A stretch of DNA of 36,462 bases from assembly GCA_024232855.1 (NCBI GenBank), contig JAAEPH010000397.1:1-36462 (forward strand). The letters run 5' to 3'. Under the pieces are notes generated by a model. It saw only the letters and a list, made by a program, of their open reading frames with translations, was not told the DNA's origin and did not search any database. The position numbers were made by a program, and so were the translations under genes. The first letter of the stretch is position 1; each line of letters opens with the position of its first letter. This stretch comes from Gammaproteobacteria bacterium. Its GTDB lineage: Bacteria > Pseudomonadota > Gammaproteobacteria > GCA-001735895. Below, piece after piece: positions 10,492 to 34,796 of the stretch.

Positions 10492-10505
10492 GACGGGTTA
10501 CGGCC

Positions 10506-11632: not shown

Positions 11633-11668
11633 TTCTACCTCTGGATTTTCAAATGATGTGTTTCGTAA

Positions 11669-11977
11669 TTACAGCCATGACTGCAGTTTGTCATATTCGG
11701 TGGTCAGTTTCACAAAGCCGTCGTAGTCGACCAGCGTGATCCCGTCGAGCATGTTTTCTTCGCCGACGCCCCTGGCCTGGAGATCGGGTTGTAGAGCGTA
11801 CACCGGGTGGTTCTCCAGGGCCTGCCGCATCCTGTCGGCGGCGGCGGAATTATCCCGTACCGCGTAAATGCCATCCTCGATCAACAGAATCGCACTGCCG
11901 GGCCGCGCCAGGCGCAGACAGCTGTCGAGCGAGTTTCGATCGAATGGAGATTTGTTGACGATGTGTAAGACAGACAT
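11669..11977 (-). CDS. dsrH: DsrH, sulfurtransferase subunit
   Basis: From the ATG at 11977 the product is 102 residues, the normal size for DsrH/TusB. A TTG 15 bases further up would overlap the dsrF stop and is less likely. The conserved cysteine is C20 (RNSLDSCLRLARPG), followed by the core strand SAILLIEDGIYAV. DsrH forms the cytoplasmic DsrE2F2H2 hexamer with its two upstream neighbours and relays sulfur from TusA or DsrE2 to DsrC. Confidence 0.94.
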   Translation of the reverse strand: MSVLHIVNKSPFDRNSLDSCLRLARPGSAILLIEDGIYAVRDNSAAADRMRQALENHPVYALQPDLQARGVGEENMLDGITLVDYDGFVKLTTEYDKLQSWL

Positions 11978-11988
11978 TTGTTTTCCAC

Positions 11989-12393
11989 TCAAAAATTCAG
12001 GAGGACATCCTGTTGTTCGATAATCTCGGCCAGTTCGGCGCTGCTGACGATATGGATGGAGTCTTTTTCCGCCCAGTCGTCGTCTTCGTCTTCCCAGGTC
12101 AAAGGCATCAGGTCGTCCTTTCCTAGCCCGCGCATTTCCAGCGATTCGCGTTCGACGTAAATCTTGTTGACGTCATAGTCACCGAGCGCACGGAAGGTCG
12201 GTGCAAAATTCTTGGTGGCGATGGCGCTGCTGTCCTGTTTTTGTAACAGCTGGTAGACCCCGTCGTCGATGAATGCGAGCGTCACGTCCTGTTCGAAGGC
12301 CGCCCCGATCAATACCACCTCGAGTGATTCCAGCGCATAGATGCTGCCATGCGGCGGCTTTCGGTTTACATAGAGAAATTTTTTTGTCGCCAT
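11989..12393 (-). CDS. dsrF: DsrF, sulfurtransferase subunit
   Basis: This 134-residue protein of the DsrE/F-like fold belongs to the TusC branch. It opens with MATKKFLYVNRKPPHGSIYA, a usual DsrF beginning, and has the second strand DVTLAFIDDGVYQLL. No cysteine is visible, in line with DsrF having a structural role in the hexamer. It begins 12 bases after dsrE and ends just before dsrH. Confidence 0.94.
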   Translation of the reverse strand: MATKKFLYVNRKPPHGSIYALESLEVVLIGAAFEQDVTLAFIDDGVYQLLQKQDSSAIATKNFAPTFRALGDYDVNKIYVERESLEMRGLGKDDLMPLTWEDEDDDWAEKDSIHIVSSAELAEIIEQQDVLLNF

Positions 12394-12405
12394 TGTAATG
12401 ATTGC

Positions 12406-12798
12406 CTAGTCGCCAAACACGATCAGTCGATCCGCCTGTATACCGGCGTCGACTAATTGTCCGAGTCCTGATATCTCGAAACCCGGTGCGATGTTGTTGC
12501 TGTCCTTGCCGGCCCGCCTGGCCTCGTCCTCGTCGAGCATGCCGCGCCGTTGTGCGGCCGCGACACACAGAATCAGCTCCAGCGAGTGCTCCTGCCCGAG
12601 CGCCGACCAGCGCTCGCTGACATTGCGGTCGTCCTGTGGCGGAACACTGAGACGGGTGCCGTTGTAGACGCCGTCATGGTAAAAAAAGACGCGCACGATC
12701 TCGTGGCCGGCGCGCAGCGCGGCCTCGGTGAAGTGGTAGGCGCTGTCCGACGCCTGGTGCGTGTAAGGGCCTTCGTTGATGAGGATACTGAATTTCAT
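12406..12798 (-). CDS. dsrE: DsrE, active sulfurtransferase subunit
   Basis: This 130-residue protein of the TusD branch of the DsrE family has its persulfide cysteine at C78 (LELILCVAAAQRRG), the same position as the active cysteine of A. vinosum DsrE. The core strands ILINEGPY and IVRVFFYHDGVYNG match the fold. It takes sulfur from upstream carriers and passes it to DsrC within DsrEFH. It follows dsrB by 12 bases. The dsrE, dsrF, dsrH trio is a marker for sulfur oxidisers and is lacking in sulfate reducers. Confidence 0.95.
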   Translation of the reverse strand: MKFSILINEGPYTHQASDSAYHFTEAALRAGHEIVRVFFYHDGVYNGTRLSVPPQDDRNVSERWSALGQEHSLELILCVAAAQRRGMLDEDEARRAGKDSNNIAPGFEISGLGQLVDAGIQADRLIVFGD

Positions 12799-12810
12799 GT
12801 GTCGCTACCG

Positions 12811-13884
12811 CTAGAAACGAATATGCGTGGAAGCGTTGAGCGAACGCCGTGCCCCACGCCAGTTGTCGACGTGAAACTTGGTGAACGGCAGTTCGGTCAG
12901 CTCGAAGAACCGCGGCCAGCCGATGCGTTCGATCCAGTCGTTGAGGCGTTCCCAGTCGCGCGCATTATCCTTGTAAGTCTGCAGGATTTTCTTCACGATC
13001 GCGGTCGCTTCGGGCCAGCGTGGCGGGTTGTTGGGTATGCCGGCAGCGACGAGCTTCTGAAAGGTGGGCTTGCCGCGCGCATTGGAGTGGTTGCCGCCGA
13101 CCCATATCGCCAGCTTGGTGTGCTCTGGATCGTTGATCTGCATCGGCGTACAGGGCGGGTAGCAGGCGCCGCAGCAGATGCATTTCTTTTCATCCACTTC
13201 GAGTGATGGCTTGCCGTTGACCAGTGCCGGGCGAATCGCCGCGACCGGACAGCGCGCTACCACCGACGGCCGCTCGCAGATATTGGCGACCAGGTCGTGA
13301 TTGATCCTGGGCGGTTTGGTGTGCTGGATGTTGATCGCGATATCGCCCTGACCGCCGCAGTTGATCTGGCAGCAGGCTGTCGTGATATGGACCCGGTTGG
13401 GCATGTTCCAGTTTTTGAATTCGTCGATCAGCTCGTCCATCATCGATTTGACCACACCCGAGGCGTCGGTACCGGGGATGTCGCAGTGCAACCAGCCCTG
13501 GGTGTGCGAAATCATCGCCACCGAGTTCCTGGTGCCGCCAACCACGAAGCCTTCTTTTTCGAGCGCCGCGATCAGCGGCTCGACCTTGCTGCCATCGGCC
13601 ACCATGTACTCGATATTGCTGCGAATGGTAAAGCGGACATAGCCTTCGGCGTATTCGTCACCGATATCGCAGAGCTTGCGCAGCGTGAATAGATCGAGAA
13701 TGCGCTGTGTGCCGGCGCGCACCGTGTAAATCGCTTCACCGCCGCGCGCGGTATGTTTTAACACACCGGGTCGCGGGTCCTCATGGTAAGCCCAGTTGCC
13801 GTAGTTTTTACGCATCAACGGATGCATGTACTGAAAACCGTCGGGGCATCCGGATTCGGTCGGGGTACGTTGGCCTTCCAGCAT
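12811..13884 (-). CDS. dsrB: DsrB, reverse dissimilatory sulfite reductase beta subunit
   Basis: I chose the ATG at 13884, with an AGGAG site 7 bases before it, giving 357 residues, close to the usual DsrB size; a longer reading would run back into dsrA. Siroheme-domain cysteines are seen in TACCQINCGGQGDIA, and a ferredoxin domain follows with CPVAAIRP, then CICCGACYPPCTPM. With DsrA it forms the alpha2beta2 enzyme that oxidises DsrC-bound sulfur to sulfite. The presence of dsrEFH and dsrL in the same operon marks it as the oxidative type. Confidence 0.96.
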   Translation of the reverse strand: MLEGQRTPTESGCPDGFQYMHPLMRKNYGNWAYHEDPRPGVLKHTARGGEAIYTVRAGTQRILDLFTLRKLCDIGDEYAEGYVRFTIRSNIEYMVADGSKVEPLIAALEKEGFVVGGTRNSVAMISHTQGWLHCDIPGTDASGVVKSMMDELIDEFKNWNMPNRVHITTACCQINCGGQGDIAINIQHTKPPRINHDLVANICERPSVVARCPVAAIRPALVNGKPSLEVDEKKCICCGACYPPCTPMQINDPEHTKLAIWVGGNHSNARGKPTFQKLVAAGIPNNPPRWPEATAIVKKILQTYKDNARDWERLNDWIERIGWPRFFELTELPFTKFHVDNWRGARRSLNASTHIRF

Positions 13885-13930
13885 TATCGGGCTCCTGCAA
13901 TCATGTCTTTCGTTGTCATCAGCCGAGCGT

Positions 13931-15190
13931 TCACGAGGTCTTTTTCTGTTCGGCCTTGCGCTCGAACCATTTCTTGGCTTCGATATCCCAGTCGTCCATG
14001 CGTACATAGGAACTGGAGCGGGTTTCGGCGATCATGTTGGGATCGACTTCGACGCCGATGCCTTCGAGAAAGTTGACCAGGCCGATGCGTTCGACCATTT
14101 CGCCGCAGCGTTCGTGTTCGAGCCCGTTCTCGGCCCAGTAGTCGATGACTTCCTCGGCGAGCTCGGTCAGGGCTTCGTAGTCATCGTCATCGTCCAGCTT
14201 CATGAAAGGAGCGATCACGGTGCCCATGAGGTCGCCGATCTTGAGCGTGCGCTTACCGCCCATGAGGATCGTGGCGCCCTTATCGTCACCGGGTGAGAGC
14301 GCCTTCGGCACGACGTTGAGGCAATGCATGCAACGCACGCAGTTGCGGTTATCGACTTCGAGGCTGTCATCGTCGTTCAACGACAGCGCATTGGTCGGGC
14401 AGCGCGTGATGATGTTGTCGATGGTGTGCTGGCGCCCTTTTCCGGCCACGTATTCCTTGAAGGCGTCCTGGTCGACCTTCATGTCATCGCGCCAGGTGCC
14501 GATGATGGCGAAGTCGGAACGTTCGATCGAGTTCATGCAATCGTTGCCGCAACCGGACACCTTGAACTTGAATTTGTAAGGCAGGGCAGGCCGATGCACG
14601 TCGTCGGTAAAATTATTCAGCAGGGTTCTGTGGACGCGCATTTCATCGATACATGACTGTTCACAGCGGGCCGAGCCCACGCATGACATGCCGGTGCGCA
14701 CGCAGGGTCCGGCGCCGCCCAGGTCCCAGCCATACTCGTTGACCTCGTTAAAGAAATACTGGGTGTTTTCGCTCGAGGTGCCGATGAACATGATGTTGCC
14801 GGTCTGTCCATGGAAGGTAACCAGGCCCGAGCCGTATTTTTCCCAGCTGTCACCGAGCTGTCGCAGTATGTCGGTGGTGTAGTAATTGCCGGCGGGAGGC
14901 TGCACCCGCAGGGTATGAAATTCCTTCGACTCTTCGAAGGCCTGCGCTACCTCCGAGAAACGCGGGATGATCCCGCTGCCGTAGCCGTAGACGCTGATCG
15001 TGCCGCCTTTCCAGTAACCCTTACGGGTTTCGTAGGAATGTTCGAGTTGCCCGAGCAGGGAGTTGGCGACGCCATTGATGCGATCGTCGCTGTGTTCGTC
15101 GCGCAGGCGTTTGATACCGGAAATGAAACTTGGCCATGGACCATTCTCGAGTTCATCGAGCATCGGTGTGACATGTGCTTTTTTTGCCAT
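13931..15190 (-). CDS. dsrA: DsrA, reverse dissimilatory sulfite reductase alpha subunit
   Basis: This 419-residue protein has the cluster and siroheme cysteines CVGSARCEQSC (C-X5-C-X3-C pattern) and GCGNDCMNS. An inserted ferredoxin domain carries CPTNALSLND, then NCVRCMHCLNVVP. The start at 15190 has a good ribosome site (AAGGAAC). The C-terminus is lysine-rich (WFERKAEQKKTS). It is the first gene of the dsr run, and its upstream region of 571 bases must hold the main operon promoter. Confidence 0.97.
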   Translation of the reverse strand: MAKKAHVTPMLDELENGPWPSFISGIKRLRDEHSDDRINGVANSLLGQLEHSYETRKGYWKGGTISVYGYGSGIIPRFSEVAQAFEESKEFHTLRVQPPAGNYYTTDILRQLGDSWEKYGSGLVTFHGQTGNIMFIGTSSENTQYFFNEVNEYGWDLGGAGPCVRTGMSCVGSARCEQSCIDEMRVHRTLLNNFTDDVHRPALPYKFKFKVSGCGNDCMNSIERSDFAIIGTWRDDMKVDQDAFKEYVAGKGRQHTIDNIITRCPTNALSLNDDDSLEVDNRNCVRCMHCLNVVPKALSPGDDKGATILMGGKRTLKIGDLMGTVIAPFMKLDDDDDYEALTELAEEVIDYWAENGLEHERCGEMVERIGLVNFLEGIGVEVDPNMIAETRSSSYVRMDDWDIEAKKWFERKAEQKKTS

Positions 15191-21739: not shown

Positions 21740-22573
21740 TTACTTTCTGCTACCTGGTCCGTTGATCGCTAGCCCGTTGCTCATGTAACTTTGAAAGTAT
21801 TCGAGCGCACGATATTCCTTGCCTTGCGCAACGAAGGGCTTGGCGCGTATCCCCTTGTCACAGCCGATGTAACGGCGATGCGTGGTGCCGAGACCGCCCC
21901 ATCCGGAACGATACACCGGGAAATGGGTCAGGTGGCCCAGGGCCGGACCCAGCAGGTCGGCGCGCGCCCTGTTGCCGACGTAGAACTTGTGGCAATCGGC
22001 GCAGGACATGTTGAGTTGCCCGCGTTTCTGGTAAAAGTGCATTTTGCCGCGTTGATAGGCTTCCAGCGCACGTGGATCGTCCGGAATCTTGACGTCAATA
22101 ATCTTGCCACGCGAGGTATAGGCCATGTAGGCGGAAATGTCGGCAATTGCACCTCTTCCCCAACTCAGCCGTTTCTCTCCGTTAGCGTCGCGGCATTCGT
22201 TGATCGCAAGTTCCAGGGTTACGACTTCACCGCGATCGGTATCGAAAAAGGGATAATTCTGGCGGATGCCGATGCCGTCATTCTCGAAACAGCTGGCGTA
22301 GTTGTTACCGTTGGCGAAAGGGGCATTGAAGAGTGCTTCACCATCGCTGATATTCAATTCGTAAGGAGCAAATTCTTCGATATCCTGCCATTGCGCGCGT
22401 GAGGCGGCATCGATCGAATAAACGCCGTTGGCGAAATCTTCGAAGGGCGTGTCCGGGAAGCGTTTCATATAAAAGTTCTGAAATTCCTCCAGGTCCTGTC
22501 GAGGTGATGCGCTACCGCTGAAAGGCATGGCCACCAGGATAGCCATGCTTAAAATCACTAGTCTTGTTCTCAT
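21740..22573 (-). CDS. soxA: SoxA, thiosulfate-binding cytochrome c subunit
   Basis: This 277-residue protein has a signal peptide (LVILSMAILVAMPFSGSA). One heme c site, CADCH, lies near residue 180. A later single cysteine in HRRYIGCDKGIRAKPF matches the active-site cysteine that ligates heme and forms a bond with thiosulfate. The N-terminal heme of diheme SoxA is missing: only one cysteine is seen in NNYASCFENDG. With SoxX it forms SoxXA, which joins thiosulfate to the SoxY cysteine. It is the last gene of soxXYZA, 55 bases after soxZ. Confidence 0.95.
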   Translation of the reverse strand: MRTRLVILSMAILVAMPFSGSASPRQDLEEFQNFYMKRFPDTPFEDFANGVYSIDAASRAQWQDIEEFAPYELNISDGEALFNAPFANGNNYASCFENDGIGIRQNYPFFDTDRGEVVTLELAINECRDANGEKRLSWGRGAIADISAYMAYTSRGKIIDVKIPDDPRALEAYQRGKMHFYQKRGQLNMSCADCHKFYVGNRARADLLGPALGHLTHFPVYRSGWGGLGTTHRRYIGCDKGIRAKPFVAQGKEYRALEYFQSYMSNGLAINGPGSRK

Positions 22574-22628
22574 GCGAGTTCTTCCCTAATTATAATTTCT
22601 TGACGCAAATTACAATTTTTGACACAGC

Positions 22629-22940
22629 CTATTTTATCGCAGCCTCGGCGCTCTCGCCCTCGCCCTGGTTATCGATCCAACTGATTTTGATCGTGTCACC
22701 CGCGGCGCCACCTTTGAATTTGAACGAAAGGTAGGGATTCTTCGATATGCCGCTACCCCAGTTGGCCGTCATTACCAGGGTACCGTTGTGCTCGGCGGTC
22801 ACTTCTGTGACATGGTGGGCCGGGATCAACTTGCCGGTCTTCTTGTCTTTGCGTAATCCCGTTTCCATGGGATGGCTTATCAATGTTTTGACGGTAGTGA
22901 TATCGTTATTTACCTGTGCGCGAATCTTTATAGAAGCCAT
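22629..22940 (-). CDS. soxZ: SoxZ, sulfur carrier partner
   Basis: This 103-residue protein has the standard SoxZ pattern: IKIRAQVNNDITTVKTLISH, then PMETGLRKDKKTGKLIPAHH and SGISKNPYLSFKFKG. SoxZ has no cysteine and supports the SoxY carrier arm. No export signal is present, so it should cross the membrane with SoxY. It starts 32 bases after soxY. Confidence 0.97.
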   Translation of the reverse strand: MASIKIRAQVNNDITTVKTLISHPMETGLRKDKKTGKLIPAHHVTEVTAEHNGTLVMTANWGSGISKNPYLSFKFKGGAAGDTIKISWIDNQGEGESAEAAIK

Positions 22941-22972
22941 GTATATTTCTCCGAATGCTTTAAAGTCTGAAT

Positions 22973-23443
22973 TTAGCCGCCGCAGCCACCAATGGTGACC
23001 TTGACTTCCCTGGTTGCCGAATAGAGTTTGCCGTCGGCCTTGACGACCGCGATGACGTCGGCGGTTTTGGCCATCTTGATACGGATCGAGACGTAAGGTT
23101 CGCAGGCGGAGGACAGCGTAAAGGTGGACGTCAGTGGAGCAACGTTAGCCGAGGCGAGGATCGAGATTGCGTCAATGTTATCCATGCTCGACGATACCGT
23201 AACCGGTACAACTGCGCCGTTTTCGGCGATTTCCGGGGCTTTCAGTTTGATTGCGTCCGACGCTGTATGCTGGTCACTGCCGAGTGAGGCGCTGATTGCC
23301 TCATTTATGTCCCTGGCTTCGAATGCGGCCTTGGCGTAAGCGCCCAGGACGCGCTGAGGTAGCAATACCCCGGTGCCAATGGCTGACGCCGTGACACCGA
23401 CGAAGGTGGCTGTTTTAACAAACTTGCGACGTAAAAGGTTCAT
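22973..23443 (-). CDS. soxY: SoxY, sulfur carrier with GGCGG arm
   Basis: This 156-residue protein has a Tat signal (LRRKFVKTATFVGVTASAIG) and ends in VTIGGCGG, the complete flexible arm whose cysteine carries the substrate. It is the canonical SoxY of the window, in contrast to the SoxY-like protein at 27693. It follows soxX by 37 bases and precedes soxZ. Confidence 0.97.
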   Translation of the reverse strand: MNLLRRKFVKTATFVGVTASAIGTGVLLPQRVLGAYAKAAFEARDINEAISASLGSDQHTASDAIKLKAPEIAENGAVVPVTVSSSMDNIDAISILASANVAPLTSTFTLSSACEPYVSIRIKMAKTADVIAVVKADGKLYSATREVKVTIGGCGG

Positions 23444-23480
23444 CTTTGATATATCTCCTGCAATATTGAGCCTTGCTTTG

Positions 23481-23864
23481 CTAAAGGCTGTAAATGAATT
23501 CGGTAATCAGGTCGACTTCCTTTTCCGTCAGGATCAGGTGTTTCCCAAATGGAGGCATGATGGTGTTCGGGTTGCCGACCGTTGCATCCCAGATTTGCTT
23601 GCGCAGAAGGGCTTTGTCGGGGAATCGCGATTTCATCGCGATCAGCGGCGGCCCGATATCACCCGGCAGCGATCCACCGGCGATCATATGACAGGCCAGG
23701 CAATTTCCCTTCCTGCGACTGAATGCCAGTTTTTTGCCGTCGGCGATTGCATCGGCGGATGCTACCGATATGCCTGCCACCGACATGCCTGCTACCAGTG
23801 TAGTGCAGCAGATCAGCGTGCACCCCGCTATTTTGCGCAAAAAATTACTGATCACGACGCTCAT
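23481..23864 (-). CDS. soxX: SoxX, cytochrome c subunit of SoxXA
   Basis: This 127-residue monoheme cytochrome has a signal region rich in small and hydrophobic residues (CTLICCTTLVAGMSVAGISV). The heme site is C55-L-A-C58-H59, and the likely axial methionine lies in NTIMPPFGKH. The sequence between (GSLPGDIGPPL) matches SoxX. It begins the run soxX-Y-Z-A on the minus strand. The 502-base region before it holds a palindrome and a long hairpin. Confidence 0.95.
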   Translation of the reverse strand: MSVVISNFLRKIAGCTLICCTTLVAGMSVAGISVASADAIADGKKLAFSRRKGNCLACHMIAGGSLPGDIGPPLIAMKSRFPDKALLRKQIWDATVGNPNTIMPPFGKHLILTEKEVDLITEFIYSL

Positions 23865-24678: not shown

Positions 24679-24998
24679 GATGATCTTCCTCTCGTTTCAG
24701 GGCATTTAATCATGAAATGATTCGAAACCCCAGATGTCAGTATCAAATCCGGCATCGCGAATGTGTTTGGCACGAGGGTTCTATCAAGTAGAGCAACGAT
24801 GGGAAAATGGGGGTGTGCTCACAGGCTCGTTCCTGTTCAACAGGTTCAAGTCCCCGGTTTCAAGTATCCCACTTTATTTCCAGCCTGGAATGGCATATAC
24901 CCCAAAATGGTTAAGAGATTATTCCTCATGGTTAATTGACTTGTTGACAAGCAATCGGGCAGTCTTGATTGCTTAGATTAATAACCACTATTCTTATA
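24679..24998. promoter_or_regulatory. Divergent intergenic region soxK / YeeE-type gene
   Basis: This region of about 320 bases has no supported gene. It has AATCAT/ATGATT arms 3 bases apart at 24708-24722, a perfect -35-like TTGACA at 24944-24949, and AAGCAATC/GATTGCTT arms 10 bases apart at 24949-24974. A TATAAT at 24995-25000 overlaps the chosen start codon of the next gene, so it is probably not its -10. The two promoters of the divergent genes should be here. Confidence 0.4.
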
Positions 24999-26192
24999 AT
25001 GGCTGAAGATTCGGAACGAGGCTTTGTTCACGCCTTGCGTGAAGACCATGCTGTCCTGTTCAGCAAGCAATGGCCTGCCTGGGTTGGAGGTCTGCTGCTG
25101 GCCCTGATCAATATCCTGCTATTCGCCTATGAAAAACCCTGGAGTGCCGCAGACGGGGTAAGGAGTTGGGGAAACTGGGTCTTCAATTCCCTGGGTATTA
25201 CCGATATCACCATTATTCCACCCTACCTGTATTCCACGTCCCTGTTGAACTTCGGTGTAATCGCTGGTGCCTTCGCGGCAGCTCTACTCATACGAGATTT
25301 TCGCATTCAGGGTGCGCCTGCCTTTGAAATCTTTAAGGCAGTGATCGGGGGGTCGCTGATGGGTATCGGTGCCGTCATGGCTTTTGGTTGCAATATTGGC
25401 GGTTTCTTCAGTGCTTCCAGCGCTTTGTCAGCGGCCGGGCTGGCGATGATGCTCGGCCTTCTAATCGGTACCTATATCGGCCTGCGTCTGCTGATTCTGG
25501 AAGTGAATTACCTCGATTTTACCCCTTCCACCAGCGCCTCGCAGGCGACAGGCAAAAAATCGACTGGCTGGAAGCAAAACCAGCCGATCTTCGGTCTACT
25601 GGTTCTGATCGGAGTTGTTAGCCTGGCATTTGTTTACGATGCCTATGATTACCCGGTTCGCGGTGGCTTTCTCGCCTTCGGCCTGCTTATCGGTATCGTT
25701 ATGCAGCGCACCCGTTTTTGCTTTGTACGCGCTTTTCGGGAACCGTTCATGACCGGCGACACGGAAATGACCAAGGCAGTAATCCTCGCCGTAATCGTCT
25801 GTACTATCGGATTCACTATTTTGAAGTGGACCGATTTACGTGATCCCATCGAAATGGTTTCGCTCGGTTTCTGGTTCGGTAGCCTGGTCGGTGGCATTAT
25901 TTTTGGCATCGGCATGTCCTTGAGTGGTGGTTGCGCTACCGGATGCCTGTGGAGAGCCGGGGAAGGACAGGTTAAACTCTGGGTGGCAATCGTGGCTTTC
26001 ACTTTTTCTACTTCCCTGTTCAGAAACTGGCTCGATGAAAGCGGCTGGTTGATGAAATTGGGTGAAGAAACATTCCTGCCTGATATCATGGGCTGGAAAT
26101 TGGCAGTTGCCGCGGTAATTGGAGTGATGCTGTTGTGGTACCTGGTAATAGTATGGAACGAGGTCAAGAGAAAACTTGTGGTTGGCTGGTAG
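24999..26192 (+). CDS. Second YeeE/YedE family transporter
   Basis: From the ATG at 24999 the product has 397 residues and about ten membrane helices. The cysteine motifs of the family are present: MAFGCNIGGFFSASSAL, a turn RTRFCFVRAFREPFM between the two halves, and SGGCATGCLWRAGEGQVKLW. The CATGC site with two cysteines differs from the first YeeE protein, which has SGCGNKTLVR. An upstream in-frame start would add ten residues. Family members such as TsuA move thiosulfate, and DUF395-type proteins are common beside sox and dsr genes. Located between soxK and the SoxYBZ-like cluster, it may supply or clear a sulfur compound for either. Confidence 0.9.
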   Translation: MAEDSERGFVHALREDHAVLFSKQWPAWVGGLLLALINILLFAYEKPWSAADGVRSWGNWVFNSLGITDITIIPPYLYSTSLLNFGVIAGAFAAALLIRDFRIQGAPAFEIFKAVIGGSLMGIGAVMAFGCNIGGFFSASSALSAAGLAMMLGLLIGTYIGLRLLILEVNYLDFTPSTSASQATGKKSTGWKQNQPIFGLLVLIGVVSLAFVYDAYDYPVRGGFLAFGLLIGIVMQRTRFCFVRAFREPFMTGDTEMTKAVILAVIVCTIGFTILKWTDLRDPIEMVSLGFWFGSLVGGIIFGIGMSLSGGCATGCLWRAGEGQVKLWVAIVAFTFSTSLFRNWLDESGWLMKLGEETFLPDIMGWKLAVAAVIGVMLLWYLVIVWNEVKRKLVVGW

Positions 26193-26328: not shown

Positions 26329-27606
26329 ATGAAAAACAGATCGATGTTTATTTTGTTACTACTGGCAATGTTCGTGGTGTCAGGTTGTACCACCGGTGGT
26401 AAAAAGTTTGGCGCGCCTAGCGAGGGCATGAGCAGCGAGGAATACCAGTCCCTTGTATTTCTCGATCCGCAAAACACGGTGCGCATGGATTGGGACGCGG
26501 TAAAGGGCATGCCAGGCAATTTTCTTATAGATAACCAGGGTCACCCCTCGGTTTCGGTAGTGGATTACGAGGCGGGCGAGACCATCAAACTTATCGATAT
26601 GGGTGAGACCGGTAACCACCACCTGTGGATAATCCCCGGTGTTCAATATGCCTGGTCTTCACAGCGCTATGAGAGCGATCAGTTCTGGACTATCGACCTG
26701 ACTACCCATGAAGTCGTCGACAAATTCCCGCTCAGCATGGATGGCAAAACCGTCATCGCTCCCCTGCATGTCGGCTTCGCTTACACCCAACCACTCGCCG
26801 TTGTCGGTAATATCCTCGACAAGGAGCATGGATACCTGACATTACTCAGCACGGCTACCAGAAGGCCGGTAGAAATCATAGAGCTCAGTTGCCATGGCGC
26901 ACGCGACGCGATGTTCACCCTGGATGACTCGAAAATCTTCTCAACCTGTCAACAGGAACCAAAAGGCGTATCAGTAGTCGATGTTGCCTCACGCAAGGAA
27001 ATCAAGATGATCCCCATATCGGGTGGCCGGGCCGGTGGTATGTCGCCTGATGGCAAGTATTTCATGGCGGCAGGCAAAGGTAGTGTCACCTTCTTCGATA
27101 CTGCAAGCGGCGATGTAGTCAAGACGATCAAAGTTCCCGGTGGCGGCGGTAACTTCACCTGCCTGGCTGACAGTTCGAAGTGTTATAACGGCCTGCGCAA
27201 AGCTAACAGTGTCGGGGTCATCGATATGAAGACTCTGGAATTGATTAAAGTGATCGAAACCGGACCCGATGGAAACCGGCTCTACATAAACCCGGCCAAC
27301 CCTCGCTATGGCCTGTTTGCCAACGAGTCAGGAAAGTCGGACATCATTACCGTGATCGATACCCGGGAAGACGTTGCTATGAAAAATATCGAAACGGGTC
27401 TCGGCCCACACAATATAGCCTTCAATCCTGAAGGAACACGTGCCGCGGTTACTACCAAAAAGGAGACGGTTGCGACTCTGCTCGATACCTCCTCGGCGGA
27501 TCCGATGGAATGGGATGTAATTACCACGGATCTGGAAGCCGGTATTCAAAATAATGGCGTACGTTGGGTTCCAGCACCTGCGGCACTGAAAGCCGCGATC
27601 AACTAA
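26329..27606 (+). CDS. Beta-propeller lipoprotein (YVTN / cytochrome d1-like repeats)
   Basis: This 425-residue lipoprotein has a lipobox around cysteine 20 (MFVVSGCTTGG). The rest is a chain of propeller-like repeats such as GVSVVDVASRKEIKMIPISG, GSVTFFDTASGDVVKTIKVP and NSVGVIDMKTLELIKVIETG, typical of seven-bladed YVTN or cytochrome d1-type propellers. Histidines in GNHHLWIIPG, SCHGARDAMF and GLGPHNIAFNPEG could bind a metal or heme, but no CxxCH is present. A strong AGAGGGGG site precedes the start. It opens the plus-strand cluster that goes on to the SoxY-like gene. It could be an accessory, sensor or catalytic protein. Confidence 0.85.
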   Translation: MKNRSMFILLLLAMFVVSGCTTGGKKFGAPSEGMSSEEYQSLVFLDPQNTVRMDWDAVKGMPGNFLIDNQGHPSVSVVDYEAGETIKLIDMGETGNHHLWIIPGVQYAWSSQRYESDQFWTIDLTTHEVVDKFPLSMDGKTVIAPLHVGFAYTQPLAVVGNILDKEHGYLTLLSTATRRPVEIIELSCHGARDAMFTLDDSKIFSTCQQEPKGVSVVDVASRKEIKMIPISGGRAGGMSPDGKYFMAAGKGSVTFFDTASGDVVKTIKVPGGGGNFTCLADSSKCYNGLRKANSVGVIDMKTLELIKVIETGPDGNRLYINPANPRYGLFANESGKSDIITVIDTREDVAMKNIETGLGPHNIAFNPEGTRAAVTTKKETVATLLDTSSADPMEWDVITTDLEAGIQNNGVRWVPAPAALKAAIN

Positions 27607-27692: not shown

Positions 27693-28157
27693 ATGATGGA
27701 AAGTCACCATACGCGGAGAGATTTTCTGCGCTACGCCACGGTTGGCGGCGTCGTCGTCCCGCTTGCATTTACCCCGGGGTTTTTCCAGCAGGCGCAGGCC
27801 AATGCGTTTAATTTTGCTGCCGACCCGGAGAATTTAACGGATATGGAGCGCATGCACCTTCCAATAATCACCCTGCCGCCGGTGGTGGAAGACGGTAGCC
27901 AGGCACCGATCCTGATAGAAGTCGATCACCCAATGGATGAGGATCACTATATCAAGCGGATACAGATTATCGGCTTTAACGATCCGGTGCAGACCAAGGG
28001 TAATTTTTACTTTTCTCCGCTGAATGGTGAAGCACTTATCGGTGTCCAGATCCGCCTCAACGGCGGTGAAAGCACGGTCTGGGCGGTTGCCGAATGCAAT
28101 CAGCACGGCTCGTGGGCGTCGAGCACGGATACCAAGGTAGCGGCGGGCGGATGTTAG
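27693..28157 (+). CDS. SoxY-like sulfur carrier, variant C-terminus
   Basis: This 154-residue protein has a Tat signal (TRRDFLRYATVGGVVVPLAF, arginines 8-9) and a SoxY-like mature part: PIITLPPVVEDGSQAPILIE, VDHPMDEDHYIKRIQIIGF and GVQIRLNGGESTVWAVAECN. It ends in KVAAGGC with the cysteine as the last residue, while canonical SoxY at 22973 ends in GGCGG. The carrier cysteine thus seems kept but the arm is two residues shorter. A further cysteine occurs in AECNQHGSW. A GAGGAG site is 5 bases before the first of two ATGs. It is 40 bases ahead of the SoxB-like gene and is probably co-transcribed with it. Confidence 0.87.
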   Translation: MMESHHTRRDFLRYATVGGVVVPLAFTPGFFQQAQANAFNFAADPENLTDMERMHLPIITLPPVVEDGSQAPILIEVDHPMDEDHYIKRIQIIGFNDPVQTKGNFYFSPLNGEALIGVQIRLNGGESTVWAVAECNQHGSWASSTDTKVAAGGC

Positions 28158-28197
28158 ATTGATGCCTGGTTTCAGCATCTTCAGGCCTGGGTTTGAC

Positions 28198-29781
28198 ATG
28201 CGATTACTTACCCTGCTGCTGGTTTTCGCGACATTCCAGCCCGCAACAGGGTTTGCCTCGGAATCGGAAAAAATCCGAATCATCAGCACCAACGATATCC
28301 ATTCCTATCTGCGACCTGTTTATTACCGGTACCAGGATGAACCGAAACCCTGGGGAAAGCAGTCCATCGAGGGTGACTATGCCAACAAATCCGAGTACGA
28401 AGGCAAGATTGGGGGCATGGCCTACGCCGCAACCATAATCAAAAGGTTTCGCTCGGAAAAACCGGACAGCACCCTCCTGGTCGATAGTGGCGATACCTGG
28501 CATGGTTCTGGCCTTTCGGTTTTAGATCGTGGCGTATCGATGGTCAAAATCATGAATAAAATCGGATATGACGCCATGGTTCCCGGTAACTGGGAGTATT
28601 TTTACGACAAGGATCACTTGCTGGATCTTATCGATCAGGCAGATTTTCCGGTCGTGGCTTTCAATCTGGTGGATAAGGAGTGGGGCGATCCGGTGCTGGA
28701 TCAATATACGATCAAGCAAGTCGGTAAATTGAAGGTCGCTATAATAGGAATGACCTATCCCTGGACAGCACTCACTTCGTCAATCGTCGGTGCCGCAAAG
28801 TGGTGGAAGTTTGGTATCCAGGAAAGAGAGGCCGAGGAACTAATTGCGCAAATCAGAGAAGAAGAAAATCCGGATCTGATCGTGTTTATCTCGCACGGTG
28901 GTTACGGTTATGATCAGAAGTTCGCGCAACGTGTCGATGGGATCGATGTACTGGTCAGCGGTCATACGCACAATGCGGTCTTCGATCCGGTTATCTGGAA
29001 TAACACCATAATCTATGAGGCTGGTGCGCACGCCGAAAATGTTTCGGTCCTCGATGTCGTGGTCAGGGACAAAAAGATCAAGAGTTACAATTACCAGTTG
29101 GCCAAGGTCAATCAGCAATTTGTGTCCGCCGATCCCGAAATCGAGGCAATGGTGGAGGAGGCTTACCGGCCGCATGCGAAGATACTGGATGAAGTCATCG
29201 GCCAGGCCGAAGGAATTTTCTTCCGTCGCGATTACTTCCAGAGCACGCTGGGCAACCTGATTACCGATGTGCTGCGTCACACGCACGAGACAGACATCAG
29301 TCTTTTCCCGGCATGGCGCTACGGCGCGACCCTGATGCCGGGCAAGATCACGGTAGAGGACGTATACAATATCATCCCTACCGGGGGCGAAGTCTCCACC
29401 TACGACATGCAGGGCAAGCATGTCAAAACCCTGCTTGAAAATATACTGGATGGTGTTGCCGGCGACGACGCCTACTCCAGAGTCGGCGGTGACATGATTC
29501 GATTTTCCGGGTTGAACATTGTTTATGACCTCGCCAATGTGCGCGGAGAAAGAATCGTAGCGATCACCATGGCCGATAATCAGCCTTTCGATGACGACAA
29601 AGTTTATTCCATTGCATCGGTAAGCACCCGGTTTCAGAATAATCCGCTTTTTGGCGCCGCCAATGTTGTCGATACCGGCAAGGTCTTTGCCGAAGAACTG
29701 ATTGCCTATATTCGGGCTAATTCACCAATCAGCGCGGCACTGGACAAGAGAATTACCCCGCGCAGGGATTCCGGAAGCTAG
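28198..29781 (+). CDS. Divergent SoxB-like dinuclear-metal hydrolase
   Basis: The ATG at 28198 gives 527 residues and a Sec signal (RLLTLLLVFATFQPATGFAS), unlike the Tat signal usual in SoxB; starts at 28162 (ATG) or 28159 (TTG) exist. Metal-site motifs of the 5'-nucleotidase/SoxB superfamily are present: STNDIHSY (D33, H35), VDSGDTW (96-101), GNWEY (N131), ISHGG and SGHTHN. SoxB hydrolyses sulfate from the SoxY-bound intermediate. Family signatures differ here: DSGDTW for DGGDTW, IGMTYPW (near 183-189) for IGQAFPY, and RVGGDM (428-433) for QHGGDM. The gene lies between SoxY-like and SoxZ-like genes, so its substrate is probably a SoxY-bound group. No other soxB is in this window. Confidence 0.85.
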   Translation: MRLLTLLLVFATFQPATGFASESEKIRIISTNDIHSYLRPVYYRYQDEPKPWGKQSIEGDYANKSEYEGKIGGMAYAATIIKRFRSEKPDSTLLVDSGDTWHGSGLSVLDRGVSMVKIMNKIGYDAMVPGNWEYFYDKDHLLDLIDQADFPVVAFNLVDKEWGDPVLDQYTIKQVGKLKVAIIGMTYPWTALTSSIVGAAKWWKFGIQEREAEELIAQIREEENPDLIVFISHGGYGYDQKFAQRVDGIDVLVSGHTHNAVFDPVIWNNTIIYEAGAHAENVSVLDVVVRDKKIKSYNYQLAKVNQQFVSADPEIEAMVEEAYRPHAKILDEVIGQAEGIFFRRDYFQSTLGNLITDVLRHTHETDISLFPAWRYGATLMPGKITVEDVYNIIPTGGEVSTYDMQGKHVKTLLENILDGVAGDDAYSRVGGDMIRFSGLNIVYDLANVRGERIVAITMADNQPFDDDKVYSIASVSTRFQNNPLFGAANVVDTGKVFAEELIAYIRANSPISAALDKRITPRRDSGS

Positions 29782-29841
29782 TTAGGCGGGTGCGTATTTC
29801 AGTTCATTTTTAAGAATTATTGTTGAGACAGGAGCAGTAAA

Positions 29842-30195
29842 ATGTCAAGCAAAGTAAAGCCACCGAGAATGAGAATCGGGAGGCGAATCAAAAAAGATCA
29901 TGTGTTTAAAGTTAAAGTCAGATTTGAGCACCCATCGTTTACCGGACTAGGTCAGGCGGAGCCTGAAACCACCCCGGCATTTAACCGGGCCATACCGGTC
30001 TCCTTTATCAGAAACATGCTGGTTTATTACGGCGAAGATCTGGTTAGCCGATTCAACATGACCTCGGCCATTGCGGATAATCCCATGTTCACTTTCAAGT
30101 TGAAGGCGGTCAAGGAGGCACCGGTCAAGGTGGTATTTATCAATAATGCCGGTGAACGCTGGGAAACCTCCAAGGACATTAAGTTTTCAGCTTAA
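29842..30195 (+). CDS. SoxZ-like protein
   Basis: This 117-residue protein is related to SoxZ: the VKVRFEHPSFTGL segment matches the place of the SHPMETG region, and ADNPMFTFKLKAV matches SKNPYLSFKFKG. It is longer at the start (a basic KVKPPRMRIGRRIKKDHVF stretch) and lacks the KDKKTGKLIPAHH block of the canonical copy at 22629. It has no signal or cysteine, so it would be exported with its SoxY-like partner. A GGAGCAG site precedes the ATG. It follows the SoxB-like gene by 60 bases. Confidence 0.85.
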   Translation: MSSKVKPPRMRIGRRIKKDHVFKVKVRFEHPSFTGLGQAEPETTPAFNRAIPVSFIRNMLVYYGEDLVSRFNMTSAIADNPMFTFKLKAVKEAPVKVVFINNAGERWETSKDIKFSA

Positions 30196-30264
30196 GTCAA
30201 GTTGCCGCGATAGCAGCGACTTCTGTTTGAATTTCCTGGAATCAGTTTGATGTTGGATATAATT

Positions 30265-30966
30265 ATGAAAAGAGTATTTTCTGCAAGCATGTTTATTTTC
30301 CTGCTTACCCTGTTAACCGGTACCAGTACCGTAGCTGCTGGTAAGATTGGTAATTTTGAAATCGAGGGCCTTATCTCGGCGGCGAGTCCGATGGCGCTGA
30401 TCTCCGAACTGGAAAAAAAGTTAGAAGTAAATGTGGTAGAAATAAATTTAAAGAACACCGAAAGTGGCTGGCCAGTGTTCGCGATTGAGTTTGACCCGGG
30501 CCAACTTTCTCGAGAAGACATTGAGAAAACCATCGCAACTATAGAAGATCCGGCGGGGCAAAAATACAAGGTTCACAAGGGTCCGCCAATCAACAATGCC
30601 GCCTTTACCGATGAAGAATTAAAGGCTATGGAAATATTTGCTCCAACAACACCTGATATAGCAAAGGTGACTAATCCGATAGCATCTTCAGACGAATCGC
30701 TAGCGCGTGGCAAGGAGATATTCGAGATCAATTGCTCTACTTGCCATGGCACGAATGGCAGTGGCCAGGGGCCCGCATCCCACGGTATTACGACTTTTCC
30801 TCGCCAGCTCTGGTCCTGGTACAACACGGACTCCGGAACCGACGCTTACCTGTACTGGTTTATCACCAATGGTCGTAACGAAATGCCACCCTGGGGTTTG
30901 ATCCTGTCTGATAACGAACGCTGGGATGTGATTAACTACGTCAAGACCCTGAAGAAACCTGAATAA
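30265..30966 (+). CDS. Cytochrome c with N-terminal ferredoxin-fold-like domain
   Basis: The ATG at 30265 gives 233 residues with signal MKRVFSASMFIFLLTLLTG. Residues about 27-108 alternate strands and helices (GNFEIEGLISAASPMALISE, LEVNVVEINLKN, VFAIEFDPGQLSREDIEKTI) like a heavy-metal-associated domain, but without its CxxC. A class I cytochrome c domain follows, with CSTCH near residue 157-161 and a late methionine in NEMPPWG as possible axial ligand. It is placed to accept electrons from the SoxYBZ-like proteins. It follows the SoxZ-like gene by 69 bases. Confidence 0.85.
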   Translation: MKRVFSASMFIFLLTLLTGTSTVAAGKIGNFEIEGLISAASPMALISELEKKLEVNVVEINLKNTESGWPVFAIEFDPGQLSREDIEKTIATIEDPAGQKYKVHKGPPINNAAFTDEELKAMEIFAPTTPDIAKVTNPIASSDESLARGKEIFEINCSTCHGTNGSGQGPASHGITTFPRQLWSWYNTDSGTDAYLYWFITNGRNEMPPWGLILSDNERWDVINYVKTLKKPE

Positions 30967-30990: not shown

Positions 30991-31413
30991 ATGAATGTAG
31001 ACGAGGACATTGTTAGCCGAAAATATCAAATTGTAGATTTTGACGATTTGATCGATGATCTGGTGGTGGAAATTCAACAGCATAACTTCCACATAAGCAG
31101 AATAAATCACATCGATAACATATACGACCGGCTCGAAGCAGGTATCGATGTAATAGTTAATTTCAAGCACTATAAAATTGTAGAAATCTGTAACCTGAAT
31201 ATCTGCAGTGAATTGATCTCGGCAGATCTGCGTGCGGGTGTATTCATGCCCGTGCGTTTTATCGTATATCAGAGACAGGAGGAAACCTCTGCACATGTCG
31301 CTTTCTTAAAGCCGACTGCATTTGCGCGTTTATTCGACTCGAAACCGCTGATGCAAGTAGCCACCCAACTCGAGGAAGAGATGATCGATGTACTCGAAGA
31401 AATGGCATACTAA
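30991..31413 (+). CDS. DUF302 family protein
   Basis: This 140-residue protein has the DUF302 fold (NFHISRINHIDNIYDRL; VIVNFKHYKIVEICNLNICS; ADLRAGVFMPVRFIVYQRQE). DUF302 proteins are small alpha/beta proteins that often occur near sulfur and redox genes; their reaction is unknown. There is no clear signal, so it may work in the cytoplasm. Its end overlaps the start of the SCO1/SenC gene by 26 bases, which indicates coupled translation. Confidence 0.82.
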   Translation: MNVDEDIVSRKYQIVDFDDLIDDLVVEIQQHNFHISRINHIDNIYDRLEAGIDVIVNFKHYKIVEICNLNICSELISADLRAGVFMPVRFIVYQRQEETSAHVAFLKPTAFARLFDSKPLMQVATQLEEEMIDVLEEMAY

Positions 31414-31987
31414 TCTTATTCTGACTATCGCATGCCTGACAGTACTGACAACCACTGTTGCTGCCGATAACCTGTCGGCACCGGATACCCGGTTCCCCGG
31501 GGGGGACTTCACCCTGCAGTCATTTCATGGCCCGGTTTCACTCAAACAATATCGTGGTAATGTGGTGCTACTGTTCTTTGGATATACGTCATGCCCGGAT
31601 GTATGTCCGATGGCACTTTCGATTCTGTCCGGCGCATTTTCCAGGCTGGAGCCGGAGGAGCTTGGAAAAATCAGGGCTCTGTTCGTGAGTCTCGATCCCG
31701 ACCGGGATACACCCGAACTACTGGGCAGGTACACCGGTTTCTTTCATCCGAATATTGTCGGTATTACCGGCGAAGTTGACGTCATCGATCAAATCGTCGG
31801 CAACTATGGCGTGGTGTACAAAAAAAAGCGGAACCCCGATTCGCCGACAGGTTATTCGATCTCGCATACACCTGACATCCTGGTGGTAGATGGGGAAGGG
31901 CAACTTTTAAAGTGGAGAATCGAGCCGGCAACCAGTAGCGAAGATATCCTTGCATATCTTCGAAGGCTGTCATCACTCCTGCAATGA
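31388..31987 (+). CDS. SCO1/SenC family protein
   Basis: This 199-residue protein has an N-terminal membrane or signal segment (NLILTIACLTVLTTTVAA) and a thioredoxin-like fold. The copper-binding motif is GYTSCPDVCPMAL and a later histidine is in YSISHTPDILVV. SCO proteins carry copper or act as thiol-disulfide reductases on the outside of the membrane. In this cluster a role in keeping carrier cysteines reduced or in metalating a partner is possible. It overlaps the DUF302 gene. Confidence 0.93.
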   Translation: MYSKKWHTNLILTIACLTVLTTTVAADNLSAPDTRFPGGDFTLQSFHGPVSLKQYRGNVVLLFFGYTSCPDVCPMALSILSGAFSRLEPEELGKIRALFVSLDPDRDTPELLGRYTGFFHPNIVGITGEVDVIDQIVGNYGVVYKKKRNPDSPTGYSISHTPDILVVDGEGQLLKWRIEPATSSEDILAYLRRLSSLLQ

Positions 31988-32015
31988 TATTTTTCGGAAT
32001 GCAGGCGGTAGATTC

Positions 32016-33608
32016 ATGAAAAGTATCATCAAGCTTGTGGCTGCATTATGCCTGAGCAGTCTGATCTCTCCCTCCTTCGCCTTCGAGCACAAGGATTCCC
32101 TGGTAAATTTTATTGAATATTCCGATGACGTGGTGCTCAAAAGCAAGCGCAAAAATAAACCCTACTTTCTTCTGTTTTCGGCGGAGTGGTGTCATTGGTG
32201 CCACGAGTTTGCCGAGAGAACACTGGTCCGTCAGGATGTGGCGGACTATCTGAATCAGCATTTTGTCAACGTATTCATCGACGCCGATATACACAACGCC
32301 GCCTACATCAAGTACCGGGCCGTAGGCCTGCCGTACTCTGTGTTTCTCAATCCTGACGGATCTCTTTATTACCAGTATTCCGGCACCTTATACGCTGATA
32401 GTTTTCTCAAGGTAATCAAGGAAGTTCAGGCTAAATCCGGCGTTGGTAAATATGCCCTGGGAATGGATGCAAACCATATCAGCTACGCACCACCTGCAAA
32501 TTTAGCGGTTGATGATTTGAGGGGAATGCCGGACATATTTAGACAGGGCCTGTTAGATAATTTTGATTCCAGCGAATACGGATTAGGCAGAGGTCAAAAA
32601 GCCATTTTACCCCGCTCCTTTTTATATTTGCTGAAAACGGCAGACGTATCCGAACGCGAGGCGGCGCTACAGTGGCTCAGGAAAACCCTGGAACGTGCGA
32701 TTGACAGAATATACGATCCGATTGAAGGGGGGTTTTTTCGCTACGCGGAAAAATCCAACTGGGAAATACCCCACTACGAAAAATTTGCCGATTTAAATGC
32801 AGGGACGGTTTTGTTGTTGTACCAGGTAAACCAGTTATCTCCTTCACCCAAATTAAAACAGGCCGCGGATAAAACCCTGGATTACCTCACTTCCACCCTG
32901 TTCGATGATGAGGTCGGTACCTTCCTCAGCTTCCAGGTCGCCGATAACTTTTACTACTCTGTCGATAAAAACAAACGCGAGTTAGTAACCAGGCCCCGGG
33001 TCGTAGACAGGGTATTCACCGACCGTCTCGCCGTCACCCTCGGTTACCTGATCGAGGTCCTCGAATACACCCAGGATCCGGAGCTGGAAAACAGGTTAAG
33101 ACAGTCGCTCGACTTTCTGGCATCGATGATTATGCGGGATATTGGCATGAGTCGTTACTATTCCGTCTCGGATAAACGTTGGCTGACATCTAGTGGAATG
33201 TCGGACCACGCTTACGTGGCAAAGTTGTTTGCCGATGCCGCGACCTATTTCCAGAACTCATCCTATGCGGAAGTTGCCGCGAGGGTATTGAATGTAGCCG
33301 TCGCCAATTTTTTTAACGTGGAAAAAGGGATATTTATCCAGCCCGAGGTCGATGACAGCACCAATGTAGAATACCTGATGGAGATCAACGGATTGTTTGC
33401 CCAGTCGATAATATCCATGGATGGCAGCCTGGGTTCCGGCGGCAGGAAGGTAGCAGGATCACTAGTCACCTATTTTTCGCGGATGGTAGAGCCGCTGGAA
33501 GATCGCCTCTGGAACGCGGTTGCCTGGGAATTCGCCGAGAGCTATGTACCCTACCTGCGGGCCGTTGGAAATTACCTGTCCTACACAACTGCGAATCATA
33601 GTGAGTAG
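32016..33608 (+). CDS. Exported thioredoxin-domain / six-hairpin protein (YyaL-like)
   Basis: From the ATG at 32016 the protein has 530 residues with a Sec signal (SIIKLVAALCLSSLISPSFA). A thioredoxin fold with the CxxC site SAEWCHWCHEFAERTLV lies near residues 50-66 and a cis-proline-like turn in AVGLPYSVFLNPDGS. The long remainder is helical with features of the six-hairpin glycosidase or epimerase fold seen in YyaL/DUF255 proteins (EGGFFRYAEKSNWEIPHYEK, MSDHAYVAKLFADAATYF). The substrate is unknown. CHWC suggests thiol-disulfide work in the periplasm, possibly on the SoxY-like cysteine. The gene begins 28 bases after the SCO gene. Confidence 0.83.
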   Translation: MKSIIKLVAALCLSSLISPSFAFEHKDSLVNFIEYSDDVVLKSKRKNKPYFLLFSAEWCHWCHEFAERTLVRQDVADYLNQHFVNVFIDADIHNAAYIKYRAVGLPYSVFLNPDGSLYYQYSGTLYADSFLKVIKEVQAKSGVGKYALGMDANHISYAPPANLAVDDLRGMPDIFRQGLLDNFDSSEYGLGRGQKAILPRSFLYLLKTADVSEREAALQWLRKTLERAIDRIYDPIEGGFFRYAEKSNWEIPHYEKFADLNAGTVLLLYQVNQLSPSPKLKQAADKTLDYLTSTLFDDEVGTFLSFQVADNFYYSVDKNKRELVTRPRVVDRVFTDRLAVTLGYLIEVLEYTQDPELENRLRQSLDFLASMIMRDIGMSRYYSVSDKRWLTSSGMSDHAYVAKLFADAATYFQNSSYAEVAARVLNVAVANFFNVEKGIFIQPEVDDSTNVEYLMEINGLFAQSIISMDGSLGSGGRKVAGSLVTYFSRMVEPLEDRLWNAVAWEFAESYVPYLRAVGNYLSYTTANHSE

Positions 33609-34139: not shown

Positions 34140-34796
34140 ATGAAATGCTGGAAATCGAAAATAGTCATGCTGGCGACCGTGCTGATCTGGTCCGCTGGCG
34201 CCGTTGCCGGCAAGCCGGTCGGTATTACCCCTGACATGATGAGTGCCAAGGTCATGCACGGCGGCAAAACGGTCAAGATAAAGCGTGACCAGAACAACGA
34301 TGCCACCGTCATTCCGGCCTTTGCGAAAACGTCGCGGCCCTGCCCACCTTTATGTATCCAGCCAATCGTATTGGCACCGGGCATCGAGACCCTGGGTGAG
34401 CGCGAAATCATCGACTACCTGCTAAGAATGAAAAATGGCGACGATACGGTGCTGGTGATCGACTCGCGCACGCCCGACTGGGTGGAAAAGGGCACCATCC
34501 CCGGAGCGGTTAATATTCCATGGACCGCGCTCAACCCGGCCAAGGGCGCCGACCCGATTTCGATCGGTGAAATCCTGGAAGATCGTTTTGGTGCAGCCTC
34601 GCTGGAAGGCCTGTGGGATTACAGCAAAGCGAAAACCCTGGTCATGTTCTGTAACGGCATGTGGTGTGGGCAATCTCCCAACAACATCAAGAACCTGCTC
34701 AAGTTCGGTTACCCGGCCCACAAGATCAAGTGGTATCGTGGCGGTATGCAGAACTGGTCCAACCTCGGCCTGACAACCGTCAAGCCTGCAAGCTAG
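34140..34796 (+). CDS. Exported rhodanese-like protein
   Basis: This 218-residue protein has a signal peptide (IVMLATVLIWSAGAVA). The N-terminal part has SRPCPPLCIQPIVLAPGIET with a CPPLC pair. A rhodanese domain follows: VLVIDSRTPDWVEKGTIPGA, then the active loop MFCNGMWCGQS and the closing YRGGMQNWSNLG. The loop has a second cysteine, so it could form a disulfide or move sulfane sulfur by persulfide. A GAGGAG site leads the ATG. It lies after the SoxYBZ-like cluster and may act as its sulfurtransferase in the periplasm. Confidence 0.88.
   Translation: MKCWKSKIVMLATVLIWSAGAVAGKPVGITPDMMSAKVMHGGKTVKIKRDQNNDATVIPAFAKTSRPCPPLCIQPIVLAPGIETLGEREIIDYLLRMKNGDDTVLVIDSRTPDWVEKGTIPGAVNIPWTALNPAKGADPISIGEILEDRFGAASLEGLWDYSKAKTLVMFCNGMWCGQSPNNIKNLLKFGYPAHKIKWYRGGMQNWSNLGLTTVKPAS

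Follow-up and report, generated by a model that had tools for sequence, protein, structure and literature searches.

The soxB gene is a standard marker gene for thiosulfate oxidation. Other uses of Sox parts have been proposed, for example in Campylobacterota, where a different hydrolase, SoxH, would be paired with a second SoxYZ (PMC10045233, PMC11237559). In Erythrobacter flavus, a SoxB homologue was proposed to cut tetrathionate without SoxYZ, which provides a precedent for a SoxB homologue that works without the usual SoxYZ/SoxXA set (PMC7608252). Here, three adjacent genes for divergent SoxY-, SoxB-, and SoxZ-like proteins (SoxY′, SoxB′, and SoxZ′; the trio) are described from contig JAAEPH010000397.1 of a gammaproteobacterial metagenome-assembled genome (MAG; GCA_024232855.1); the window denotes the whole stretch of 36,462 nucleotides that was analysed. 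A first-pass annotation of the window had placed such a trio on the plus strand, and all three open reading frames were found where it put them. The reading that we lean towards, with moderate confidence and from sequence comparisons, is that the trio and its neighbours form a divergent, self-contained SoxYZ-SoxB sulfate-releasing module, which displaced canonical soxB and feeds the reverse dissimilatory sulfite reductase (rDSR) pathway of the window.

Family membership and active site of the trio

The three genes are separated by gaps of 1 bp (SoxY′-SoxB′) and 60 bp (SoxB′-SoxZ′). SoxY′ contains a SoxY domain (PF13501, 57.8 bits; cut-off 28.4) but scored below the "true SoxY" model TIGR04488 (47.5 bits; cut-off 125), its nearest NCBIfam model being TIGR04487 (63.9 of 172 bits). 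In addition, the product of this gene (27693-28157) scores above the cut-off of the desulfoferrodoxin domain, PF01880 (45 bits; cut-off 22.2). Likewise, SoxZ′ contains a SoxZ domain (PF08770, 53.5 bits; cut-off 25) and fell below the equivalog TIGR04490 (49.4 bits; cut-off 76). The first-pass annotation had SoxZ′ missing a conserved block, which was not borne out: the SoxZ profile aligns to it over positions 6-96 of 98, and the stretch in question has diverged but is still there. SoxB′ scored 382.9 bits against the equivalog TIGR04486 (cut-off 550), and its homologues in L075 and L077 also scored under the cut-off (412-414 bits); it matches the SoxB structure 2wdc with an E-value of 3.6e-52, and its Pfam domains are 5_nucleotid_C and Metallophos. 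The AF2 model of SoxB′ had a mean pLDDT of 52.9 and was left out of the fold search.

All seven metal-ligand positions, assigned according to established family knowledge, are kept in the alignment of SoxB′ (D46, H48, D112, N144, H246, H269, and H271). Asn144 lies in a PGNWE motif that is shared by all four trio copies, whereas canonical SoxB has a His in GHWE and the nucleotidases have an Asn in GNHE/D; thus, SoxB′, with GNWE, carries neither the canonical [G/A/P/S]HWE motif nor the 5′-nucleotidase motif GNH[E/D]. A second signature, TNDxH, is that of 5′-nucleotidases, compared with TDxH in canonical SoxB. SoxB′ also has the SoxB-specific Arg387 (RYGA, compared with RWGT in canonical SoxB) and a GGDM-R motif (GGDM at 443-446), neither of which is present in the nucleotidases compared. 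The combination of SoxB-type pocket residues with a nucleotidase-like Asn argues for S-sulfonate hydrolysis by a SoxB-line enzyme with an altered metal site.

The SoxY′ arm ends in ...KVAAGGC, compared with VTIGGCGG in canonical SoxY. Cys154 is the final residue, and every copy seen has the same AAGGC end in place of the GGCGG swinging arm. A twin-Arg signal is found on SoxY′ and no signal on SoxZ′, the pattern expected of a co-exported carrier. The likely start of SoxB′, as read from the sequence, is the ATG at 28198, from which the protein begins with a Sec-like signal, MRLLTLLLVFATFQPATGFA, whereas canonical SoxB carries a twin-Arg signal, MNLNRREFIRLMG. The first-pass annotation was therefore right that the SoxY arm, the SoxB signatures, and the SoxB signal type differ from the known forms.

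In a tree rooted with 5′-nucleotidases as the outgroup, the SoxB family, trio included, is set apart from the nucleotidases with a support of 100/99; this grouping, together with Arg387 and GGDM, places SoxB′ in the wider SoxB superfamily. The SoxB relatives form four groups, each supported at 100/100: canonical SoxB, the trio, a stand-alone lipoprotein type, and a plasmid-borne Alphaproteobacterial type. The canonical clade excludes SoxB′, whose sister is the stand-alone lipoprotein type (95/95), and an approximately unbiased (AU) test weakly rejected a single clade of trio and canonical SoxB (p 0.041). SoxY′ (99/96) and SoxZ′ (94/87) also form clades of their own; their branches are very long and lie apart from both canonical SoxYZ and the second SoxYZ paralogue of the genus. 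All three proteins thus form separate deep clades, as the first-pass annotation had anticipated for a separate system. The canonical part of the family includes a long SoxB of about 640 aa, with an insertion, which some members have in place of the 587-aa form (L069, L071, L072, and L073); the assignment of L071-L073 to the nucleotidases was rejected, as they are canonical SoxB of the long type.

Loss of canonical soxB

The genome, a draft MAG of 546 contigs and 97.27% complete, encodes SoxXYZA, and no canonical soxB was found anywhere in it. Elsewhere in the genus, canonical soxB has cbb genes and homologues of the left end of the window (narXL-like) as neighbours, and contigs that also carry soxA show a distance of about 30-38 kb between the two genes. 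The old soxB locus was found on contig C77 of this genome, beside cbbM/cbbQ/cbbO, with synteny kept up to the gene preceding soxB. There, a relic (L044, G000:C77, 11480-11670) opens with 21 bp that correspond to the soxB start (about 6 codons), in which ATG has become ATA, and this start joins directly to codons ~532-587 (the final ~56), interrupted by a frameshift. At the protein level, the relic is still 75-80% identical. The remnant on C77 is a deletion relic rather than the sign of a missing contig: canonical soxB was once present in this genome and was then deleted.

Across the genus, canonical soxB was present in none of the four trio carriers and in 23 of the 25 non-carriers tested, some of these 23 being fragments at contig ends (Fisher p 6.3e-4, a value that ignores phylogeny and shared ancestry). 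The first-pass annotation expected a second, canonical soxB beside a distinct system; none was found in the genome, and module and canonical soxB were never found together in the genus. The other three carriers (G275, G280, and G281) also yielded no soxA. G280 retains the cbb cluster, next to which soxB is absent. In G281, an intact canonical soxZ follows only the C-terminal part of soxY, whose arm reads TDGCGG (L174, G281:C13, 1418-1902), with no soxXA nearby, and this remnant is a decaying sox cluster.

The outcome is a sulfur oxidizer in which canonical soxB is a pseudogene relic, yet in which a distantly related SoxB is encoded together with a SoxY and a SoxZ of its own; surveys for the canonical gene would score such a bacterium as incapable. 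Replacement of a central sulfur-cycle enzyme becomes directly testable through this either/or distribution among genus members, and a naturally occurring SoxB whose metal ligand differs, paired with a Cys-ending SoxY arm, should be useful for studying the roles of the GGCGG arm and the metal-site His.

The conserved operon and the sulfur genes of the window

The trio lies within a longer operon, in the order YeeE, lipoprotein beta-propeller, SoxY′, SoxB′, SoxZ′, cytochrome c, DUF302, SCO1, and DUF255 (Table 1). This order recurs, within contig reach, in about five other related genomes (L075/G280, L076/G275, L077, L078, and L079/G281). Identities to L075-L077 are 69-81% for SoxB′, 80-87% for SoxZ′, and 77-81% for the propeller; the YeeE protein keeps its position in L075, L076, L077, and L078, at 67-74% identity, as does the cytochrome in L075, L077, and L079, at 56-67%. 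Between the window and L075, the ratio of nonsynonymous to synonymous substitution rates (dN/dS) is 0.07-0.13 for genes with measurable dS. The module is under strong purifying selection, and the recurrence of the trio in the same gene order, with these ratios, is not due to chance. The operon occupies different chromosomal sites, and the genes upstream of it differ, being soxXYZA in the window, XseA-like and guaBA-like genes in L173, and a LysR-type gene in L077 (the last three names are readings of the sequences); the module is therefore either mobile or was rearranged in one piece.

A one-genome-per-species scan of GTDB r220 returned four loci. In a 398-genome sample of the phylum, the only matches besides the window scored 305-337 bits, and by score and coverage these look like other SoxB types. 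No trio was found on viral contigs or plasmids, and no description of this operon was found in the open-licence literature.

Table 1. Sulfur-related features of the window, with their positions and the matches on which they were identified
Feature	Position	Strand	Evidence
SoxY′, divergent sulfur carrier	27693..28157	+	PF13501, TIGR04488, alignment, tree, arm table
SoxB′, divergent thiosulfohydrolase-like metallohydrolase	28159..29781	+	TIGR04486, PDB 2wdc, alignment, trees
SoxZ′, divergent SoxZ subunit, without signal peptide	29842..30195	+	PF08770, TIGR04490, tree
YeeE/YedE-family (SoxT/TsuA-like) sulfur transporter, first module gene	24969..26192	+	PF04143 183.6 bits
Lipoprotein beta-propeller	26329..27606	+	AF2 model pLDDT 73.8, Foldseek
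Exported monohaem c-type cytochrome (CSTCH), extra N-terminal domain	30247..30966	+	PF13442 62 bits
DUF302 protein	30991..31413	+	PF03625 37.6 bits; 69% identical in L075
SCO1/SenC-type copper/redox chaperone	31388..31987	+	PF02630 124.5 bits; present in L075, L079
DUF255/DsbH thioredoxin-domain protein	31950..33608	+	PF03190 54 bits; 61% identical in L079
Exported rhodanese, possible module member only, 531 bp downstream of module	34140..34796	+	PF00581 50.9 bits
Canonical soxX-soxY-soxZ-soxA, intact by profile, without soxB	21740..23864	-	TIGR04485, TIGR04488, TIGR04490, TIGR04484 passed
soxX	23481-23864	-	over curated cut-off TIGR04485
soxY	22973-23443	-	over curated cut-off TIGR04488
soxZ	22629-22940	-	over curated cut-off TIGR04490
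soxA	21740-22573	-	over curated cut-off TIGR04484
soxK candidate	24367-24678	-	position only; no Pfam match
Dissimilatory sulfite reductase cluster (dsrA, dsrB, DsrE-family, DsrM/K/O/P-like, others)	4575..15190	-	

The YeeE protein matched the TsuA model NF041049 at 110 bits, under the cut-off. Four His residues of the propeller (His97, His98, His147, and His361) are invariant among five copies. In Foldseek it matched YVTN propellers of a generic kind, NirF/NirN, and nitrous-oxide reductase, which assigned no function to it; no SBP56 (methanethiol oxidase) match was found in Pfam. Across 369 genomes of the class, nothing else matched the propeller at E<=1e-50. As a lead only, its HH motif resembles that of copper propellers such as SELENBP1 (PMC10362175).

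The canonical soxX, Y, Z, and A named in the first-pass annotation stood up to their profiles, whereas position alone marks its soxK as a candidate. Beyond these genes, the window forms a sulfur-oxidation island, with TusA, DsrE2, and YeeE genes besides a Dsr cluster (profile scores: TIGR02064, 604 bits; TIGR02066, 533 bits; DsrK, 599 bits; DsrO, 291 bits). Because of its DsrE-family genes and the company of sox genes, this cluster presumably runs oxidatively (the reverse type), and it is the likely downstream sink for sulfur.

Proposed mechanism, alternatives, and comparison with known systems

In the proposed mechanism, the module would have moved between genomic sites in one piece and, in this lineage, taken the place of canonical soxB. 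A Tat-exported carrier would be formed by SoxY′ and SoxZ′, with the reactive Cys154 at the extreme C-terminus of SoxY′, to which a thiosulfate-type sulfur unit would be attached. The loader might be SoxXA where present, as here, or the redox proteins of the module (propeller and/or cytochrome c). SoxB′, as a di-metal hydrolase, would then cut off the terminal sulfonate as sulfate, and the remaining sulfane sulfur could pass through thiol or sulfur-transfer partners (DUF255 thioredoxin, YeeE) to TusA/DsrE and on to Dsr. YeeE-type import has a precedent in SoxT (PMC11582611). A copper-dependent step, either loading or sulfane oxidation, might involve the propeller with its four invariant His residues, SCO1, or cytochrome c. 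We infer the substrate, the loading step, and the electron acceptor of the module, and SoxB′ may serve the canonical SoxYZ too.

An alternative that we regard as less likely is that the module serves another kind of sulfur compound (tetrathionate, an organic thiol or sulfonate, sulfite, or thiocyanate-derived sulfur), the loss of soxB meaning that canonical thiosulfate oxidation was abandoned and that soxXYZA is on its way out. The lack of a detected soxA in three of the four carriers and the degraded soxY of G281 fit this explanation, as do the unusual accessories (HH-motif propeller, SCO1, and DUF302), the different SoxY arm, and the metal-site Asn; the proposed tetrathionate activity of the E. 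flavus homologue (PMC7608252) and the divergent SoxY homologues of lucinid symbionts, discussed for other sulfur compounds (PMC11237559), point the same way. However, soxXYZA shows no visible decay, since its profile scores indicate intact genes and the relic of soxB retains 75-80% protein identity; moreover, the module adjoins soxXYZA and dsr, and the SoxB-specific pocket residues are kept. The first-pass annotation had itself suggested a separate carrier-and-hydrolase system for another sulfur compound. The deep clades, the joint conserved operon, and the genomes without a detected soxA favour the separate system, which may or may not act on another substrate. It had also offered the simpler idea that SoxB′ is the organism's only SoxB, with duplicated carriers. 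SoxB′ is indeed the sole SoxB of the genome and a member of the wider family, but the trio is no recent duplicate and canonical soxB was deleted. The ordinary case, in which a divergent SoxB and its duplicated carriers would simply belong to the canonical families, is improbable, given that all three proteins lie outside the canonical clades on long branches (the AU test adding weakly to this) and under the equivalog cut-offs, in an operon context not found described in that literature.

It is very improbable that SoxB′ is a periplasmic nucleotidase or phosphoesterase whose SoxYZ neighbours are unrelated to its reaction. The metal-site Asn, TNDxH, and the Pfam domains would suit such an enzyme, but GNHD/E is changed to GNWE, the SoxB-type Arg387 and GGDM are present, and the protein clusters with SoxB and always lies between SoxY′ and SoxZ′. 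We give as little credence to an assembly artefact in which canonical soxB was lost or mis-joined: the fragmented draft, with the soxB site near contig ends of both the window and C77, would allow it, but the relic is internal to C77, and canonical soxB is absent in the three other carriers as well. Loss in assembly was judged unlikely from the lost start codon (ATA) and the further frameshift of the relic. For a SoxYZ-SoxB module that displaced canonical soxB, several points weigh on the other side. The metal position holds Asn where canonical SoxB has His, and the SoxY′ arm stops short of the final GG in GGCGG; loading in the canonical way cannot apply to all carriers, as no soxA was detected in three of the four; the relic is known from the assembled sequence of a MAG; and the displacement rests on four draft MAGs, possibly related by descent. 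A bolder and rather unlikely proposal is a SoxXA-independent Sox-type system, in which SoxY′Z′-SoxB′ would load its own substrate through a (possibly copper-linked) propeller and cytochrome. It would fully replace the usual entry into Dsr-dependent sulfur oxidation, making canonical soxB, then soxXA and soxYZ, dispensable.

Compared with canonical SoxB (TIGR04486; PDB 2wdc, Thermus thermophilus), SoxB′ shares the family, the ligand positions, the SoxB-specific Arg and GGDM, and the pairing with SoxY and SoxZ, but differs in its ~31% identity, its sub-equivalog score, Asn for His, a Sec-like for a Tat signal, and a clade of its own. Its nearest relatives are the stand-alone lipoprotein SoxB-like proteins of other Gammaproteobacteria (L010-L013), which are 38-40% identical over their full length and have PGN at the metal site; unlike the trio, they have no SoxY/SoxZ neighbours, their neighbours being thioredoxin-like or unrelated. 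This type occurs together with canonical soxB in G015, G033, G043, and G045. Lipoprotein-type copies (L010-L013 and L039-L042) carry a GNV[D/E] metal-site motif, and a two-thioredoxin-domain protein is adjacent in two genomes.

The SoxB-like proteins of Alphaproteobacterial plasmids (Bradyrhizobium, Bosea, and Sphingobium) are also non-canonical, and several lie near DUF302, YeeE, cytochromes, metallo-beta-lactamase (MBL) hydrolases, or rhodaneses, a gene content like that of the E. flavus tsdA-soxB cluster (PMC7608252). They differ from the trio in their own clade, an HWE metal-site motif, no evident signal peptide, and no SoxYZ neighbours. L200-L203 are SoxB-like genes on conjugative plasmids of this kind that are annotated only as 5′-nucleotidases, in regions with MBL hydrolase, rhodanese, TauE, YeeE, DUF302, or DsbA genes.

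On the carrier side, the SoxYZ paralogues (AACIE-arm TIGR04487, the fused quinoprotein-associated TIGR04557, and the second SoxYZ of the genus) are, like SoxY′Z′, divergent carriers with altered arms. SoxY′Z′ is distinguished by its AAGGC arm end and by a clade separate from the fused and second SoxYZ compared, and none of the paralogues seen flanks a SoxB. The second SoxYZ is present in many genus mates (L122-L128, L133-L135, and L175, 103-857), with arms VGRNSC.., VGDICAV, and SADNSCLA; at L175, it lies close to rhodanese-like and TusA-like genes. A fused SoxYZ lies at L043 (G000:C55, 4951-5787), with another propeller protein on the same contig (9196-10164). The soxCDY2Z2 genes of Campylobacterota, with SoxH proposed to stand in for SoxB, likewise combine a second SoxYZ with an alternative hydrolase (PMC10045233, PMC11237559). 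There, the annotation of SoxH is that of a beta-lactamase-type metallo-hydrolase, and SoxCD forms part of the cluster; here, the module lacks SoxCD and its hydrolase is a relative of SoxB.

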